Shown here piece after piece: positions 3,240 to 45,364 of a stretch of 64,000 nucleotides of DNA (within the stretch, counting starts at the first letter, position 1; the number at the start of each line of letters is the position of its first letter). The DNA is taken from assembly GCF_900100075.1 (NCBI RefSeq), contig NZ_FNEG01000004.1, positions 372,001-436,000 on the forward strand. Reading direction: 5' to 3'. The translations under genes and the position numbers were made by a program. This DNA is from Chryseobacterium jejuense. GTDB taxonomy: Bacteria; Bacteroidota; Bacteroidia; Flavobacteriales; Weeksellaceae. The notes beneath the pieces are model-generated. The model did not search any database and was not told the DNA's origin. It saw only the letters and a list, made by a program, of their open reading frames with translations.

Positions 3240-3785
3240 ATGAAAAAAATGATATTTCTGGCTTCGGCTGTTCTGGTATTAAATTCATGTGTGGTAAGAA
3301 CTGCCACTAAAGTGGTGTCAGGAGCTGTAAATATAGGCTACAAGGCAGTAAAAGGAACTGTTAATGGAATTAGCTGGGCTGTAAGCAAAGCTAAGGGGAA
3401 AATAGATGAAGACCGTTTAGACGGAACCTGGAAAGTGGTAGGAGTTTATAAAGGTTCTTTCGAAGATTTTACCAAAGATCAGAATCCGGAAAGCACATTT
3501 TCTTCAGAATGTACAGAAGGCTTTGACCAAATGATTTTTAAAGCCAATAAATCTAAATTCAAACCGGTACATTGCAGTACTGATAAAGAAGATTGGGTAA
3601 AATACTCGTTAGAATTCGGGAAAAACCCTATTACCAAAGAAAAGGAAAACTATATTGAATACAATTCCAATAACTATATTTCAGTGATTGATGTGAATAG
3701 CAAAACAATGGTCCTGGAAGGTAACCTGATGCCTAAGCTGGCATTTTCCGGTGCCAAATTATATCTTTTGGAAAAGGTAAAATAA
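3240..3785 (+). CDS. lipocalin-like lipoprotein
   Basis: A 181-residue lipoprotein with lipobox LNSC (Cys 17). An amphipathic stretch rich in Gly, Val and Lys (about residues 22-57) leads into a lipocalin-like domain that opens with LDGTWKVVGVYKG and ends with the strand LAFSGAKLYLLEKV. Two cysteines (in SSECTEG and VHCSTD) could form a disulfide. Such domains often bind small hydrophobic ligands, but nothing here identifies one. A strong terminator follows at 3791-3825. Confidence 0.75.
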   Translation: MKKMIFLASAVLVLNSCVVRTATKVVSGAVNIGYKAVKGTVNGISWAVSKAKGKIDEDRLDGTWKVVGVYKGSFEDFTKDQNPESTFSSECTEGFDQMIFKANKSKFKPVHCSTDKEDWVKYSLEFGKNPITKEKENYIEYNSNNYISVIDVNSKTMVLEGNLMPKLAFSGAKLYLLEKVK

Positions 3786-3790
3786 AATCA

Positions 3791-3825
3791 TAAAGCCTGT
3801 CTCTCATTTTGAAGACAGGCTTTTT
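3791..3825 (+). terminator. intrinsic terminator after lipocalin-like gene
   Basis: AAAGCCTGTCT pairs exactly with AGACAGGCTTT across a 9-base loop and is followed by a T run. It starts 6 bp after the stop at 3785. Confidence 0.85.
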
Positions 3826-3872
3826 ATTTATAGGAAGGTTATGTGTTTCTATCTAAAGCTTTCATGTTTTTA

Positions 3873-4000
3873 AAACGCAAAGGATTAAAGTTGATACTTT
3901 ATAGTTTTAAGCAAGCTAAGAGGGGAATCGATTAAAAATCGATCCTGATGAAGTTGTATGGTTATACAATATCTAGAAAATAAAAACTTTGCGTTTTAAA
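3873..4000. repeat. inverted CTTTGCGTTTTAAA pair before the array
   Basis: TTTAAAACGCAAAG near 3870-3884 is the reverse complement of CTTTGCGTTTTAAA near 3987-4000, the sequence that opens each unit of the 205-bp array. Between them lies a perfect hairpin, ATCGATT-AAA-AATCGAT, near 3926-3943. This may be the founding or boundary element of the array. Confidence 0.6.
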
Positions 4001-5303
4001 TTTATCTCGCGCTGATTTCGCTGATGAAGCAGATCTAAAAATATATGCCTAATCTCCTTGATCTAAGAGAGATTTGTATCATTTGGAAAAAGATAAAGTA
4101 ATTTTGAAAATGCAAGTGTTATCCTTCTGCTTCTTCAGCGGCTTTGCCGCATTACTTTGCTTCCTTGAAATACAACATTTAGAAAATAAAACTTTGCGTT
4201 TTAAATTTATCTCGCGCTGATTTCGCTGATGAAGCAGATTTAAAAATACATGCCTAATCTCCTCGATCTAAGAGAGATTTGTATCATTTGGAAAAAGATA
4301 AAGTAATTTTGAAAATGCAAGTGTTATCCTTCTGCTTCTTCAGCGGCTTTGCCACATTACTTTGCTTCCTTGAAATACAACATTTAGAAAATAAAACTTT
4401 GCGTTTTAAATTTATCTCGCGCTGATTTCGCTGATGAAGCAGATCTAAAAGTATCTGCATAATCTCCTTGATCTAAGAGAGATTTGTATCATTTGGAAAA
4501 AGATAAAGTAATTTTGAAAATGCAAGTGTTATCCTTCTGCTTCTTCAGCGGCTTTGCCGCATTACTTTGCTTCCTTGAAATACAACATTTAGAAAATAAA
4601 ACTTTGCGTTTTAAATTTATCTCGCGCTGATTTCGCTGATCAAGCAGATCTAAAAGTATCTGCATAATCTCCTTGATCTAAGAGAGATTTGTATCATTTG
4701 GAAAAAGATAAAGCAATTTTGATGATGCAAGTGTTATCCTTCTGCTTCTTCAGCGGCTTTGCCGCCTTACTTTGCTTCCTTAAAATATAACATCTAGAAA
4801 ATAAAACTTTGCGTTTTAATTTTATCTCTCGCTGATTTTGCTGATAAAGCAGATCTAAAAGTATCTGCGTAATCTCCTCGATTTGTGAGAGATTTGTATC
4901 ATTTGGAAAAAGATAAAGTAATTTTGATGATGCAAGTATTATCCTTCTGCTTCTTCAGCGGCTTTGCCGCATTACTTTGCTTCCTTAAAATATAACATCT
5001 AGAAAATAAAACTTTGCGTTTTAATTTTATCTCTCGCTGATTTCGCTGATCAAGCAGATCTAAAAGTATCTGCATAATCTCCTTGATCTAAGAGAGATTT
5101 GTATCATTTGGAAAAAGATAAAGTAATTTTGAAAATGCAAGTGTTATCCTTCTGCTTCTTCAGCGGCTTTGCCGCATTACTTTGCTTCCTTGAAATACAA
5201 CATTTAGAAAATAAAACTTTGCGTTTTAAATTTATCTCGCGCTGATTTCGCTGATGAAGCAGATCTAAAAATACATGCCTAATCTCCTCGATCTGTGAGA
5301 GAA
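3965..5303. repeat. 205-bp tandem repeat array, about 6.5 copies
   Basis: The string ACTTTGCGTT recurs at 3986, 4191, 4396, 4601, 4806, 5011 and 5216, exactly 205 bp apart each time. Six units are complete and a seventh of about 88 bp ends in GTGAGAG at 5303. Each unit contains a TCGCGCTGATTTCGCTGAT block and the hairpin GCGGC-TTT-GCCGC (first copy 4138-4150), perfect in five of six units. Units differ by only a few substitutions; the copies near 4.7-5.0 kb share variants such as TGATGATGC. Since 205 is not a multiple of 3, and stops occur in all frames, it is not coding. The array lies directly behind the 3' end of the minus-strand hydrolase gene. Confidence 0.97.
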
Positions 5304-5307
5304 AAAA

Positions 5308-6792
5308 TTATTTATTTTCTATTTCAACAATTTTCTTTCCTTCTTCACCCAGATAATGAAGAACCAACTTTTCATAGACTTTAGAACCGTCATCGGTATT
5401 GGTAAAGATGACAATCCCTTTTCCTGATTTTGGAAGAGCAAATGCAATACATCGTGTCCCTTGGTCAGCACCTCCATGAGCTAATGCATAATCTCCATTA
5501 CCAAGCTCATATACTTCAAAACCTAATCCGAAATATTTATTATCTCTTATTTTCACCTGTTGTTTGATCATTTCCCTAAATATTTCAGGCTTCAGATTTC
5601 CACCTTTCATGATATTGACCATAAAATTCCCTAAATCTTCTATCGTAGTGTGTAGGTCGTCAGCAGCATTAGCCACTTTGTTTTTTTCTATCGGATAAGG
5701 TTTACCATCCTTATCATATCCAATGGCAAATCTTGATTCATCGGTATTTTGATCCCAGATATAATTGGTATCATTCATTTTGAGTGGTTTAAAAATCAAT
5801 TCTTTGGCAAGCTGATCAAGCGATTTACCAAATTTCTTTTCTAAAGCTTTTCTTAGGTATTCAAACCCTTCCCCTGAATATTGATATTTCGTTCCCGGAT
5901 CAAACTGAAAATGCAGTTTCTTGTCAGCATTCATCCATCTCCAGTTGGGAAAGCCTGTTTGATGGGTAAGAATAATTCTGGTGGTTAATTTCTTATGTCT
6001 CGGGTCATTAGCAAGATCCGGATCTATCCAATACTGATCAAGAGGTTCATCCAGATTCCATTTCCCTAAACTTACCAGATGCAGTGTAACCATGGTAGTT
6101 ATGGGTTTGGTAATAGAAGCTACATTGAAATAGGTGTTATAAGGAGCCGAAATTCCTTTTTTTATTTCTCCTAAAACTTTTACCTGCTTCAATGCTCCGC
6201 CTTCAATGATTCCTAATCCTACAGTTGGAATTTTATTTTCTTTCAGCCAGTTTTCAATAGCTTGGTCATCTTCAAAAACATTCTCATCATTGGCTTTTTT
6301 TGCCTGATGGTCGAAACTAAGTGATCTTTTCAGCTTCCACTCGCCATTTTCTTTAACCCATACATGCGTAAATTTAGCAGAACCTGTTAGTTTTTCTAGC
6401 TGATTGGTTTCTTTTTCATAAAACAGATGATCTCCGTTTTGAATAACGGCATATACTTCTCCTTCTTTATACATTGGGTAAACTTCAGTACTTTTTTCGA
6501 CTAAGGCTCTCCTTGCCTTATATGTTTTCAATGGTCTGCATAACCCGTTTTTAAAATCGATCATAAATTTCTTTTTATCAGAAAAGCCATCTTTATCGTG
6601 ATAAAATTCAAGCTGGTCACTGAGTATATTTTCCATTTGACCAACATTACAAGTATTGAAGCCTACCGAAAAAAGCAAGCTGTCTCTGGACATAATTGTT
6701 TTGTATAAAGCATCAGTCTTTTCTATTTGTGCATGAACATTGCTAAAGAAAGCGATAAAAAATAGGAGTATAAAACGAGTATACTTTGTCAT
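5308..6792 (-). CDS. DUF4440 + serine beta-lactamase-like hydrolase
   Basis: Secreted two-domain protein of 494 residues. After a signal peptide (residues 1-21) comes an NTF2-like DUF4440 domain (about 25-165), then a class C beta-lactamase/DD-peptidase-like serine hydrolase domain. The nucleophile motif SITK is near residue 226, YSG near 305 and HGG near 438, so the active site is intact. Such enzymes act as esterases or peptidases and are not necessarily antibiotic resistance determinants. The longer frame to 6810 needs a TTG start and puts six residues before the signal peptide, so the ATG at 6792 is preferred. Its stop is 4 bp from the 205-bp array, which would be its 3' untranslated region. 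Confidence 0.85.
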   Translation of the reverse strand: MTKYTRFILLFFIAFFSNVHAQIEKTDALYKTIMSRDSLLFSVGFNTCNVGQMENILSDQLEFYHDKDGFSDKKKFMIDFKNGLCRPLKTYKARRALVEKSTEVYPMYKEGEVYAVIQNGDHLFYEKETNQLEKLTGSAKFTHVWVKENGEWKLKRSLSFDHQAKKANDENVFEDDQAIENWLKENKIPTVGLGIIEGGALKQVKVLGEIKKGISAPYNTYFNVASITKPITTMVTLHLVSLGKWNLDEPLDQYWIDPDLANDPRHKKLTTRIILTHQTGFPNWRWMNADKKLHFQFDPGTKYQYSGEGFEYLRKALEKKFGKSLDQLAKELIFKPLKMNDTNYIWDQNTDESRFAIGYDKDGKPYPIEKNKVANAADDLHTTIEDLGNFMVNIMKGGNLKPEIFREMIKQQVKIRDNKYFGLGFEVYELGNGDYALAHGGADQGTRCIAFALPKSGKGIVIFTNTDDGSKVYEKLVLHYLGEEGKKIVEIENK

Positions 6793-6880
6793 TGTTAATA
6801 TTTTTGACAAAGATTATATTTTCATCAGTTTTATTCCTAAAAATGGACCTGACAAAAACCCGACAAAGCACTAACAACAC

Positions 6881-25447: not shown

Positions 25448-27169
25448 TTAGAACAAGTAATACAACTGTGTTAAAGGAAGTTTTTCTGCCGGCTCACAAG
25501 TGATATATTCACCGTCTACCGTTACTTTATAGTTTTCAGGATTCACTTCAATTAAAGGAGTCTTATCATTATGGATAAGGTCTTTTTTAGAAATATTTCT
25601 ACAGTTTTTCACCGGAAGAATCATTTTTTCCAATCCATAAGAAGCGATAGTTCCGTTATCAATAGAAATTTGAGAAACAAAATTTGCACAAATACCGTAC
25701 TTAGCTTTTCCGTGAGCTCCAAACATATTTCTGTAGATAATGGGCTGTGGTGTTGGAATAGAAGCATTCGGATCTCCCATTTTAGCTGCAATAACAAATC
25801 CTCCTTTTACAATCATTTCAGGTTTTACTCCGAATAATGCTGGTTTCCAGATCACCAAATCTGCTAATTTCCCTTCTTCAAGAGATCCTACATATTCTGA
25901 AATACCGTGTGCAATTGCCGGATTGATGGTATATTTAGCTACATATCTTTTGGCACGATAGTTATCATTTCCGCTATCCTGATCTTCTGCTAAATCACCT
26001 CTTTGCTCCTTCATTTTGCTGGCTGTCTGCCAGGTTCTAGTAATAACTTCTCCCGGTCTTCCCATTGCCTGAGAGTCTGAACTCATGATACTGAAAACTC
26101 CCATATCATGAAGAATATCTTCTGCTGCAATAGTTTCAGGACGGATACGTGAATCTGCAAACGCTACATCTTCAGGAATATTTTTGCTCAAGTGGTGGCA
26201 AACCATCAGCATATCTAAGTGCTCATCGATTGTATTGATCGTGTAAGGACGTGTTGGGTTGGTAGAAGCCGGTAATACATTGGGATACATTGCTGCTTTG
26301 ATGATGTCCGGTGCGTGACCTCCACCTGCTCCTTCTGTGTGGAATGTGTGGATTACTCTTCCATTGATTGCTCTCATCGTATCTTCCAGGAATCCTCCTT
26401 CATTTAAGGTATCTGTGTGAATAGCCACCTGAACATCATATTTGTCTGCTACTTTTAGCGCGGCATCAATGGTTGCAGGGGTTGCTCCCCAATCTTCGTG
26501 AATTTTCACTCCTAATGCTCCCGCTTCAACTTGCTCTTCAATAGGCTCTTCTGCTGAACAGTTTCCTTTTCCGAAGAATCCTAAGTTCATTGGATATTCT
26601 TCTGCTGCTTCAAGCATTTTCTGCATATTGAATTTCCCTGGAGTTACCGTTGTTGCATTTGTTCCGTCATTAGGACCTGTCCCACCTCCAATCATGGTAG
26701 TAATTCCACTGTATAGAGAGGTTTCAATCTGTTGCGGGCAGATGTAGTGAATGTGGGTATCAATTCCGCCGGCAGTTACGATGTATCCTTTTCCACCGTG
26801 AACTTCAGTAGAAGCACCAATAATCATGTTAGGACTTACACCGTCCATTGTATCAGGATTTCCAGCTTTTCCGATTCCTACGATTTTACCGTCTTTAATC
26901 CCGATATCTCCTTTTACAATTCCCCAGTGATCGATGATTACTGCTCCTGTGATGCAAAGATCAAGAACTCCTTCATCTCTTTTGGCAGTAACGTTCTGGC
27001 CCATCCCATCACGTACGGTTTTTCCACCTCCGAAAACAGCTTCGTCTCCATAATGGGTGAAATCTTTCTCGATTTCAATAATGATTTCAGTGTCTCCCAG
27101 TCTGATTTTATCTCCGGCTGTAGGACCTAATATATTGGCATATTGTTTTCTGTCTACGTGTAAGCTCAT
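25448..27169 (-). CDS. ureC: urease subunit alpha UreC
   Basis: The 573-residue catalytic subunit, which hydrolyses urea to ammonia and carbamate with two nickel ions. All key residues are present: THIH (His 139, His 141), the carbamylated Lys 222 in VKIHEDWG, His 251, His 277, the flap MVCHHL with Cys 324 and His 325-326, and Asp 365 in SSDSQAMGR. Length and sequence match bacterial UreC. One base separates its start from the ureB stop. Confidence 0.99.
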
Positions 27170-31202: not shown

Positions 31203-31258
31203 ATCTTTTATCTTTTATCTTTTATCTTTTATCTTTTATCTTTTATCTTTTATCTTTC
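31203..31258. repeat. ATCTTTT heptamer array, 7 copies plus 1 variant
   Basis: Seven exact ATCTTTT units (31203-31251) and an eighth, ATCTTTC. It directly precedes the promoter of the lipoprotein gene at 31306: the -7 box starts 11 bp after the array, so the -33 region falls within it. Confidence 0.97.
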
Positions 31259-45257: not shown

Positions 45258-45355
45258 ATCTTTTATCTTTTATCTTTTATCTTTTATCTTTTATCTTTTA
45301 TCTTTTATCTTTTATCTTTTATCTTTTATCTTTTATCTTTTATCTTTTATCTTTT
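45258..45355. repeat. ATCTTTT heptamer array, 14 copies
   Basis: Exactly 14 perfect ATCTTTT units (98 bp). It begins at the same junction (ACGACAAG) as the 7-copy array at 31203 and ends 10 bp before the stop codon of the minus-strand gene at 45365. Confidence 0.99.
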
Positions 45356-45364
45356 AAACAAAAT

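Follow-up and report, generated by a model that had tools for sequence, protein, structure and literature searches.

Our analysis suggests that the 205 bp tandem array in the window, the whole 64 000-nucleotide stretch of DNA analysed here, is an amplified and homogenized composite of gene-less pieces derived from two palindromic repeats, A and B, of the kind linked to GxxExxY genes. Judged from sequence comparison, we put the probability of this reading at roughly two in three. The array looks like the debris of a little-known partnership between gene and repeat, rather than part of the adjacent serine hydrolase gene. The repeats are linked to GxxExxY genes, and a gene-less state of them exists. 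The array alone is of modest interest, and the gene–repeat link to which it led is the interesting part.

The array and its position

Tandem Repeats Finder, run on the 64 kb window with an upper period limit of 500, reported 6.5 copies of a 205 bp period at 3964–5302 (94 % matches, score 2354), and its four other rows in the window had periods of only 7–15 bp. Copies start at 3964, 4170, 4375, 4580, 4785, 4990 and 5195; copy 1 is 206 bp long, with one additional A, each of copies 2–6 has 205 bp, and copy 7 is truncated at 5302. The seven starts at 205 bp spacing given in the original prediction were therefore right, copy 1 being one base longer. The predicted distance of 4 bp to the hydrolase stop codon holds with the array end put at 5303, and 5 bases separate an end at 5302 from the stop codon at 5308–5310 on the minus strand. 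The array occupies most of the spacer between a lipoprotein gene on the plus strand and the hydrolase gene on the minus strand (Table 1); this convergent arrangement and the complete, shortened palindrome A at 3872–3997 were absent from the original prediction. Perfect tandem repeats of the 7 bp ATCTTTT, possibly slippage-prone, stand 14 kb apart in the window at 31203–31257 (7.9 copies) and 45258–45356 (14.1 copies).

The window ORF list holds no ORF of at least 60 aa between 3786 and 5307, and the 205 bp period is not divisible by 3; the array is therefore regarded as non-coding, as had been predicted, and a coding function was rejected. Any two of copies 1–6 differ at 5–19 of 205 sites, and 23 columns vary, their variants being combined in mosaic patterns; copy 6 starts as copy 5 and then resembles copy 3, and the first 100 bases of copy 7 show 1 difference from copy 2 and 10 from copy 6. 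These mosaics, along with the varying number and period of units in the same spacer of other species, agree with the expansion or homogenization proposed earlier. The GCGGC-TTT-GCCGC hairpin, which had been ascribed to each unit, is intact in five of the six copies that reach it, but copy 2 reads GCCAC; copy 7 stops short of it. One unit folded as a single DNA strand gave a z of -1.0, with 33 of 200 shuffles equally good. No Rfam family matched the array at its gathering score, and structured-RNA membership comes down to two sub-threshold matches at E≤1. Elsewhere in the window (26719–27014, plus strand), a whole-model Rfam match to 5_ureB_sRNA (70.5 bits, cut-off 40) perhaps reflects the ureB coding sequence and no sRNA gene.

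Table 1. Features in and around the array (window coordinates)
Feature	Position	Strand	Basis
Lipoprotein gene, left neighbour, convergent with hydrolase gene	3240..3785	+	ORF; below-cut-off LPAM_1 and NF038104 matches
Terminator-like hairpin AAGCCTGTCT..AGACAGGCTTTTT, after lipoprotein gene	3793..3826	+	Read from sequence
Palindrome A, shortened but complete (AAAACGCAAAG ... AATCGATTAAAAATCGAT ... CTTTGCGTTTT), left array edge	3872..3997	.	Read from sequence
Tandem array, composite 205 bp unit x 6.5	3964..5302	.	Tandem Repeats Finder and copy alignment
Copy 2, representative unit	4170..4374	.	Copy listing
Degenerate B palindrome, copy 2 (ATCTCGCGCTGATTTCGCTGATGAAGCAGAT...AATCTCCTCGATCTAAGAGAGAT)	4209..4278	.	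By-eye comparison
Possible decayed copy of the lipoprotein gene's last codons, copy 2	4279..4306	+	BLASTN and position
Partial A palindrome, copy 2/3 junction: GCGGCTTTGCC(G/A)C hairpin, CTTTGCTTCC arm, CTTTGCGTTTT arm; left arm degenerate	4322..4409	-	
Serine hydrolase gene (PF00144 Beta-lactamase, DUF4440), right neighbour	5308..6810	-	ORF; Pfam E 2.9e-43

Composition of the unit

Half of palindrome A (AACGCAAAG...CTTTGCGTT) is present in each unit together with palindrome B (CTCGCnGATTTCGCnGAT...ATCTGnGAG), which is degenerate and gene-less. The complete A at the left edge has its right arm in common with copy 1, and its layout equals that of the element upstream of GxxExxY genes. The B block of copy 2 was compared by eye with loci L174, L180, L182, L249, L243, L250 and L058, and is laid out like the inverted repeats on either side of some GxxExxY genes with the gene left out. 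The partial A at the copy 2/3 junction matched two elements of the same genome, C14:456279 and 456554, which sit upstream of a GxxExxY gene, at 90 % and 85 % over ~60 bp. BLASTN aligned unit positions 110–137 with window 3759–3785 (82 % over 28 bp, E 0.43) and, to go by its position, the unit may also contain a decayed duplicate of the lipoprotein gene's final codons.

Searched against its own genome, the unit gave seven matches within the array and five partial ones outside it, two of them directly upstream of a GxxExxY gene, and a pattern search of that genome for the full element gave 0 matches. Partial matches were found in 87 of 148 genomes of the genus, so that the question raised earlier, whether the unit occurs singly elsewhere, is answered by the finding of its parts across the genus.

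Palindrome A measured 147–178 bp in 22 of 23 copies and 225 bp in L163, and B about 65–70 bp. Both have inverted-repeat arms, like the terminal inverted repeats of MITEs, and these are degenerate in the window array. An alignment of A from 21 of 31 loci, leaving out eight without a clean arm pair and the longer L142 and L163, gave a fold of an outer stem, an inner stem and three hairpins, with 95.4 % of pair cells paired. Cells changed on both sides numbered 29, against 9.9 in shuffles and 2–6 with partners slid. Pairs with two-sided change showed a weak excess (6 against 3.9, reached by 41 of 500 shuffles), and further pair types (17) were fewer than the 19.8 of the shuffles. The copy in L150 folded with a z of -4.0. 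Because the aligned sequences are related, this covariation is support, and no proof, for a conserved fold in A.

GxxExxY genes and their flanking repeats

A GxxExxY protein of the same genome matched TIGR04256 (E 2.4e-41, 140.7 bits against a cut-off of 35) and PF13366 PDDEXK_3 (E 1e-39). This genome has three such matches; they were found in 111 of 118 Chryseobacterium genomes, with up to nine per genome, and in 122 of 247 genomes sampled across the phylum. D67, E77, K79, Q91 and Y95 were invariant in 99 of 99 domains; the invariant D, E-x-K, Q and Y presumably form the PD-(D/E)XK active-site motif, and this pattern is as expected of a putatively active nuclease of that type. Similarity to Cas4 models was weak (best E 1.8e-4), and no match at E≤1 was found among PDB sequences. 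We know of no assigned role for GxxExxY. The name receives passing mentions in those passages of the open-access literature that were available, and neither the Pfam name PDDEXK_3 nor six typical A/B repeat strings were found in that literature; the available portions of work on intergenic repeats of Chryseobacterium, Flavobacterium and Bacteroidetes held nothing on A/B repeats.

The link with A was assessed at 30 loci, which were the best-scoring ones, one per genome, out of the 118 genomes. On the upstream side, 28 of these 30 genes had an A word at most 500 bp away, and on the downstream side none had one, against a background of 0.05 per kb at 23 other Chryseobacterium loci. The gene cutC was present at 27 of the 30; L148 and L152, without cutC, have no A, and L167, a short contig without cutC, has it. 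With 27 of 30 loci sharing cutC, the A link is mainly one linkage conserved through the genus, and A could therefore be an independent repeat placed at one GxxExxY gene. An A word was also found within 350 bp of 7 of 69 further GxxExxY genes, four of the seven coming from the phylum sample.

Of 20 further paralogues that were read, most lie between inverted repeats, which belong to several types. Of these, CTCGCAGATTTTGCAGATAACGCAGATT (L174, L180, L182) is the B type; the bracketing repeats are mostly of other types, including AACCACAAAAGTCACAAAAG, CCCACAGATTTCTCAGATAACACAGATT, AAACACAAATAACACAAATG and AACCATTAAGA. B words occurred in the flanks of 8 of 39 further genes of the genus, 2 of 30 of the phylum sample and 0 of 30 A-type genes; a narrow B pattern, which misses CGCAGATTTTGCAGAT, was used in the 69-gene scan, as in the array and short-spacer scans and the first RAYT scan.

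Gene-spanning inverted repeats were assessed with 150 bp flanks and 200 dinucleotide shuffles per gene. At p≤0.05 (p≤0.01 in brackets), they were found at 30 (26) of the 39 additional genes from Chryseobacterium and at 26 (21) of the 30 from the phylum sample, so that 56 of 69 GxxExxY genes outside the cutC-type set have a bracketing inverted repeat of any type at p≤0.05. The corresponding figures were only 2 (2) of 30 for A-type GxxExxY genes, 16 (12) of 30 for RAYT genes as a positive control, 4 (1) of 23 for hydrolase genes and, at p≤0.05, 0 of 30 for tpiA. A cruder test put 39 of 99 GxxExxY genes above the 99th percentile in either of two tests; its controls were 364 six-frame ORFs, spurious ones included, and the shuffle test on real genes is preferred. 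One of 100 loci (L194) was dropped, its gene not being found in frame. The two flanks of the gene in L214, from the phylum sample, are identical at 41 of 42 bases. Spacings between successive C-N-C-A-R-A words in GxxExxY flanks were 9–11 bp in 88 of 143 cases, compared with an average of 0.3 in shuffles.

Some further observations concern these loci. Two other genera have tandem duplications of units that include GxxExxY, at L335 1807–3452 (94 % over 906 bp) and L336 2013–3238 (92 % over 686 bp); apparent twin copies in G088 were rejected, the pair being different paralogues. Another palindrome type, AACGCA...GCGAACG...GCGTT, lies upstream of GxxExxY in L181 and L187 and, gene-less, upstream of tpiA in L264 and L265.

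Gene-bearing and gene-less states upstream of tpiA

The site upstream of tpiA was searched in 31 genomes and compared in 30. L238 carries an intact repeat–GxxExxY–repeat arrangement, identified by HMM. Broken GxxExxY genes stand between the repeats in L245 (by HMM) and in L241 and L251 (by eye), and in L249, L243 and L250 the repeats stand back to back as a gene-less B. The element is one-armed in L239, which is the genome of the window, and in L240 and L246; a trace is left in L247, and nothing is present in L242, L244, L254 and others. The gene on the far side of the site differs among genomes. By eye, no clean target-site duplication was found at this site, at which element-free versions exist (L242, L254). 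From these states we infer that gene-less copies of B probably derive from gene-bearing ones, with the change running in that direction. The B block of the window has the layout of the gene-less state at this site.

Abundance and arrays at other sites

The 118 genomes held 1347 A words and 2112 B words. In G000, A words numbered 44 and B words 52, against 7 and 0 for the reversed-pattern controls. Across the 118 genomes, the number of GxxExxY genes correlated with B words (rho 0.47) and with A words (rho 0.31), in a comparison uncorrected for phylogeny or genome size and with words adjoining GxxExxY genes counted. The seven GxxExxY-free genomes had fewer B words (median 3 versus 16), and words were still present in such genomes, G042 having 13 A and 10 B. 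Close to genes, B words of the window's own genome lay in 14 convergent and 2 divergent settings, from 30 of 52 examined, some pairs of words being one element.

Arrays containing A and/or B recurred elsewhere. Tandem Repeats Finder, applied to 14 loci, gave such arrays at 12, with periods of 156–342 bp, and no array at L042 and L049. Period and copy number were 204 bp x 6.5 in G108, 342 x 8.0 in G067, 188 x 3.5 in G011, 164 x 4.1 on C14 of the same genome, 156 x 3.9 in G083, 262 x 3.4 in G088, 221 x 3.6 in G105, 203 x 3.2 in G021, 272 x 2.8 in G005, 339 x 2.8 in G006, 279 x 2.7 in G053 and 265 x 1.9 in G055. B is visible in the array of L331, and the unit takes in a copy of the start of a GxxExxY gene in the arrays of L043, L044, L045 and L051. 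As the arrays were located through A/B words, they show recurrence and are no measure of enrichment. A special link with the hydrolase gene, suggested by the original prediction, was rejected, as palindromes of the same kind form arrays beside other genes. At L056 (1070–2040), 47 bp GTTGTGACTGATCACTAAG... repeats alternate with variable stretches of ~30 bp at a period of 77, an arrangement that resembles a CRISPR array.

The same spacer in other species

Relatives of the hydrolase were represented by 80 named loci, the genus being Chryseobacterium and the nearest hydrolase among those listed coming from C. jejuense (85 %). In 73 of the loci the lipoprotein gene was sought; it lay beside and convergent with the hydrolase gene in 31 of the 73, with spacers of 95–2236 bp. 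Twenty of these 31 spacers were read base by base, namely 19 shorter than 700 bp and that of L091. The spacers of L060, L061 and L062 (95–143 bp) are without A or B words, which again speaks against a hydrolase-specific association. One element each is present in the L071 spacer and the G053 locus, and two tandem copies ~334 bp apart in L058, the second of which additionally includes spacer from beside the lipoprotein gene. L073 has 2.1 copies with a period of 235 bp, and L091 has 2.9 copies with a period of 189 bp, its words being related but different and its unit matching that of the window across only 39 bp. L058 and L042 probably come from one genome, and L071 and L057 from another, each counted twice. 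Counterparts of the terminator-like hairpin are present in L042, L046 and L057. In eleven species (L063, L065–L067, L077, L082, L105, L113, L124, L126 and L128), the spacer holds ~535–560 bp of different sequence, apparently a gene, in place of the repeat.

The element may therefore be absent, single or tandem with periods of 189, 235 or ~334 bp, so neither period nor number is conserved; this variation in copy number was seen between species. As the copies in the spacers of different species are of different units, tandem growth has taken place here more than once.

Interpretation and alternatives

On the reading that we prefer, palindrome-rich DNA in the spacer would have been duplicated by slippage or by unequal recombination, after which gene conversion or unequal crossing-over may have kept the copies alike. 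The array would be without a dedicated function, its presence being tolerated where two genes converge. The hydrolase/lipoprotein spacer showed no GxxExxY gene, and for this array the link consequently rests on the similarity of the repeats. It is less certain that GxxExxY nucleases might recognize the palindromes and help them to spread or rearrange, in the way that RAYT acts on REPs; that GxxExxY acts on A and B is a hypothesis.

An ordinary minisatellite is a possible but doubtful explanation, in which any spacer may duplicate by slippage and the pieces of A and B are incidental passengers. It fits with periods that differ everywhere, with the unremarkable folding of the unit as a single DNA strand and with the two arrays of L057, with periods of 101 and 94, in whose consensus no A or B word was visible by eye; the recurrence of A and/or B in arrays at many sites argues against it, though these were found via such words. 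The order in GxxExxY flanks, where words are phased at 9–11 bp as DNA-binding sites might be, would suit an array that binds or titrates a protein, for which GxxExxY is a possible and natural candidate, and the array does multiply related words. Its words are degenerate (CGCGCTGATTTCGCTGATGAAGCAGAT), however, and its copy number is not conserved, and we consider such a decoy unlikely. Still less probable is a functional RNA or 3'-end element, whether 3' UTR, terminator, RNA sponge or transcription buffer between convergent genes. The predominance of B words at gene 3' ends and the conserved fold of A would favour it, but this bias is equally expected where insertions elsewhere are harmful, just half of the A fold is present in each unit, A and B words are missing from the short spacers of three species, and copy number is variable. 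The 3' UTR or sponge of the original prediction lost further ground with the Rfam result at gathering score and a unit that folds little better than shuffles.

Ownership of the palindromes by a TnpA(REP) tyrosine transposase, with A and B as REP-like repeats, is very improbable and largely refuted. Y1_Tnp genes are present in 104 of 118 Chryseobacterium genomes, with three matches in G000, and REP subclass 2.6 genes of Bacteroidetes are described as having flanking atypical structures with copies elsewhere (PMC6006769). However, at 30 Y1_Tnp loci, the best-scoring ones with one per genome, the 350 bp flanks held A words in 0 and B words in 0, the latter with the narrow and the corrected B pattern alike and even with 2 mismatches allowed. 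The two repeat sets are therefore separate, and RAYT/REP ownership of A and B was rejected. At 13 of these 30 loci (flanks of L303–L325) there is a GTCCC-GGGAC palindrome instead, distinct from A and B, and several other RAYT-type loci have CCACTTCGTGG-type repeats. An assembly artefact, by which the assembler made or changed the number of units, is the most improbable of these explanations: the genome is in 20 contigs, but the array lies inside a 642 kb contig, its copies have distinct variants, and more than one copy is also seen in this spacer in other assemblies.

The reading as amplified gene-less pieces of A and B leads to a wider proposal, which we put forward tentatively. GxxExxY genes and phased palindromes may form a phylum-wide system of a new enzymatic class, in which the nuclease recognizes its own flanking palindromes and is lost and regained, and gene-less palindromes are spread or rearranged in trans. 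If so, arrays such as that at 3964–5302 would be products of nuclease activity. If the palindrome link holds, a candidate DNA substrate adjoins each GxxExxY gene, which would make its function directly testable, and part of the dispersed CGCAGATTTnGCAGAT and AACGCAAAG genome repeats would be accounted for.

Comparison with known systems

The closest parallel is with REP/REPIN sequences and RAYT (Y1_Tnp), in which the gene of a single-domain DNA-processing enzyme is likewise flanked by palindromic repeats, and gene-less copies lie scattered in intergenic DNA, frequently at 3' ends, and form tandem clusters. However, GxxExxY is a PD-(D/E)XK nuclease whereas RAYT is an HUH transposase, and RAYT genes of the same genus carry other repeats. 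REPs are defined as short palindromes of 20–40 bp with a conserved tag (GTAG/CGTC) (PMC3733652). The repeats linked to GxxExxY are words phased at 9–11 bp or the branched fold of ~160 bp of A. MITEs are similar in that gene-less inverted-repeat pairs are present where other genomes hold a gene in between, but differ in that no target-site duplication was seen here and no transposition is demonstrated. Intact A and B-type repeats adjoin genes of the GxxExxY family (TIGR04256/PF13366 PDDEXK_3), whereas the window array has repeats only, with no gene seen. Like an intergenic VNTR or minisatellite, the array is tandem, with mosaic copies and a number that varies between species, but its unit is built of dispersed palindromes that are also arrayed elsewhere in the genus.
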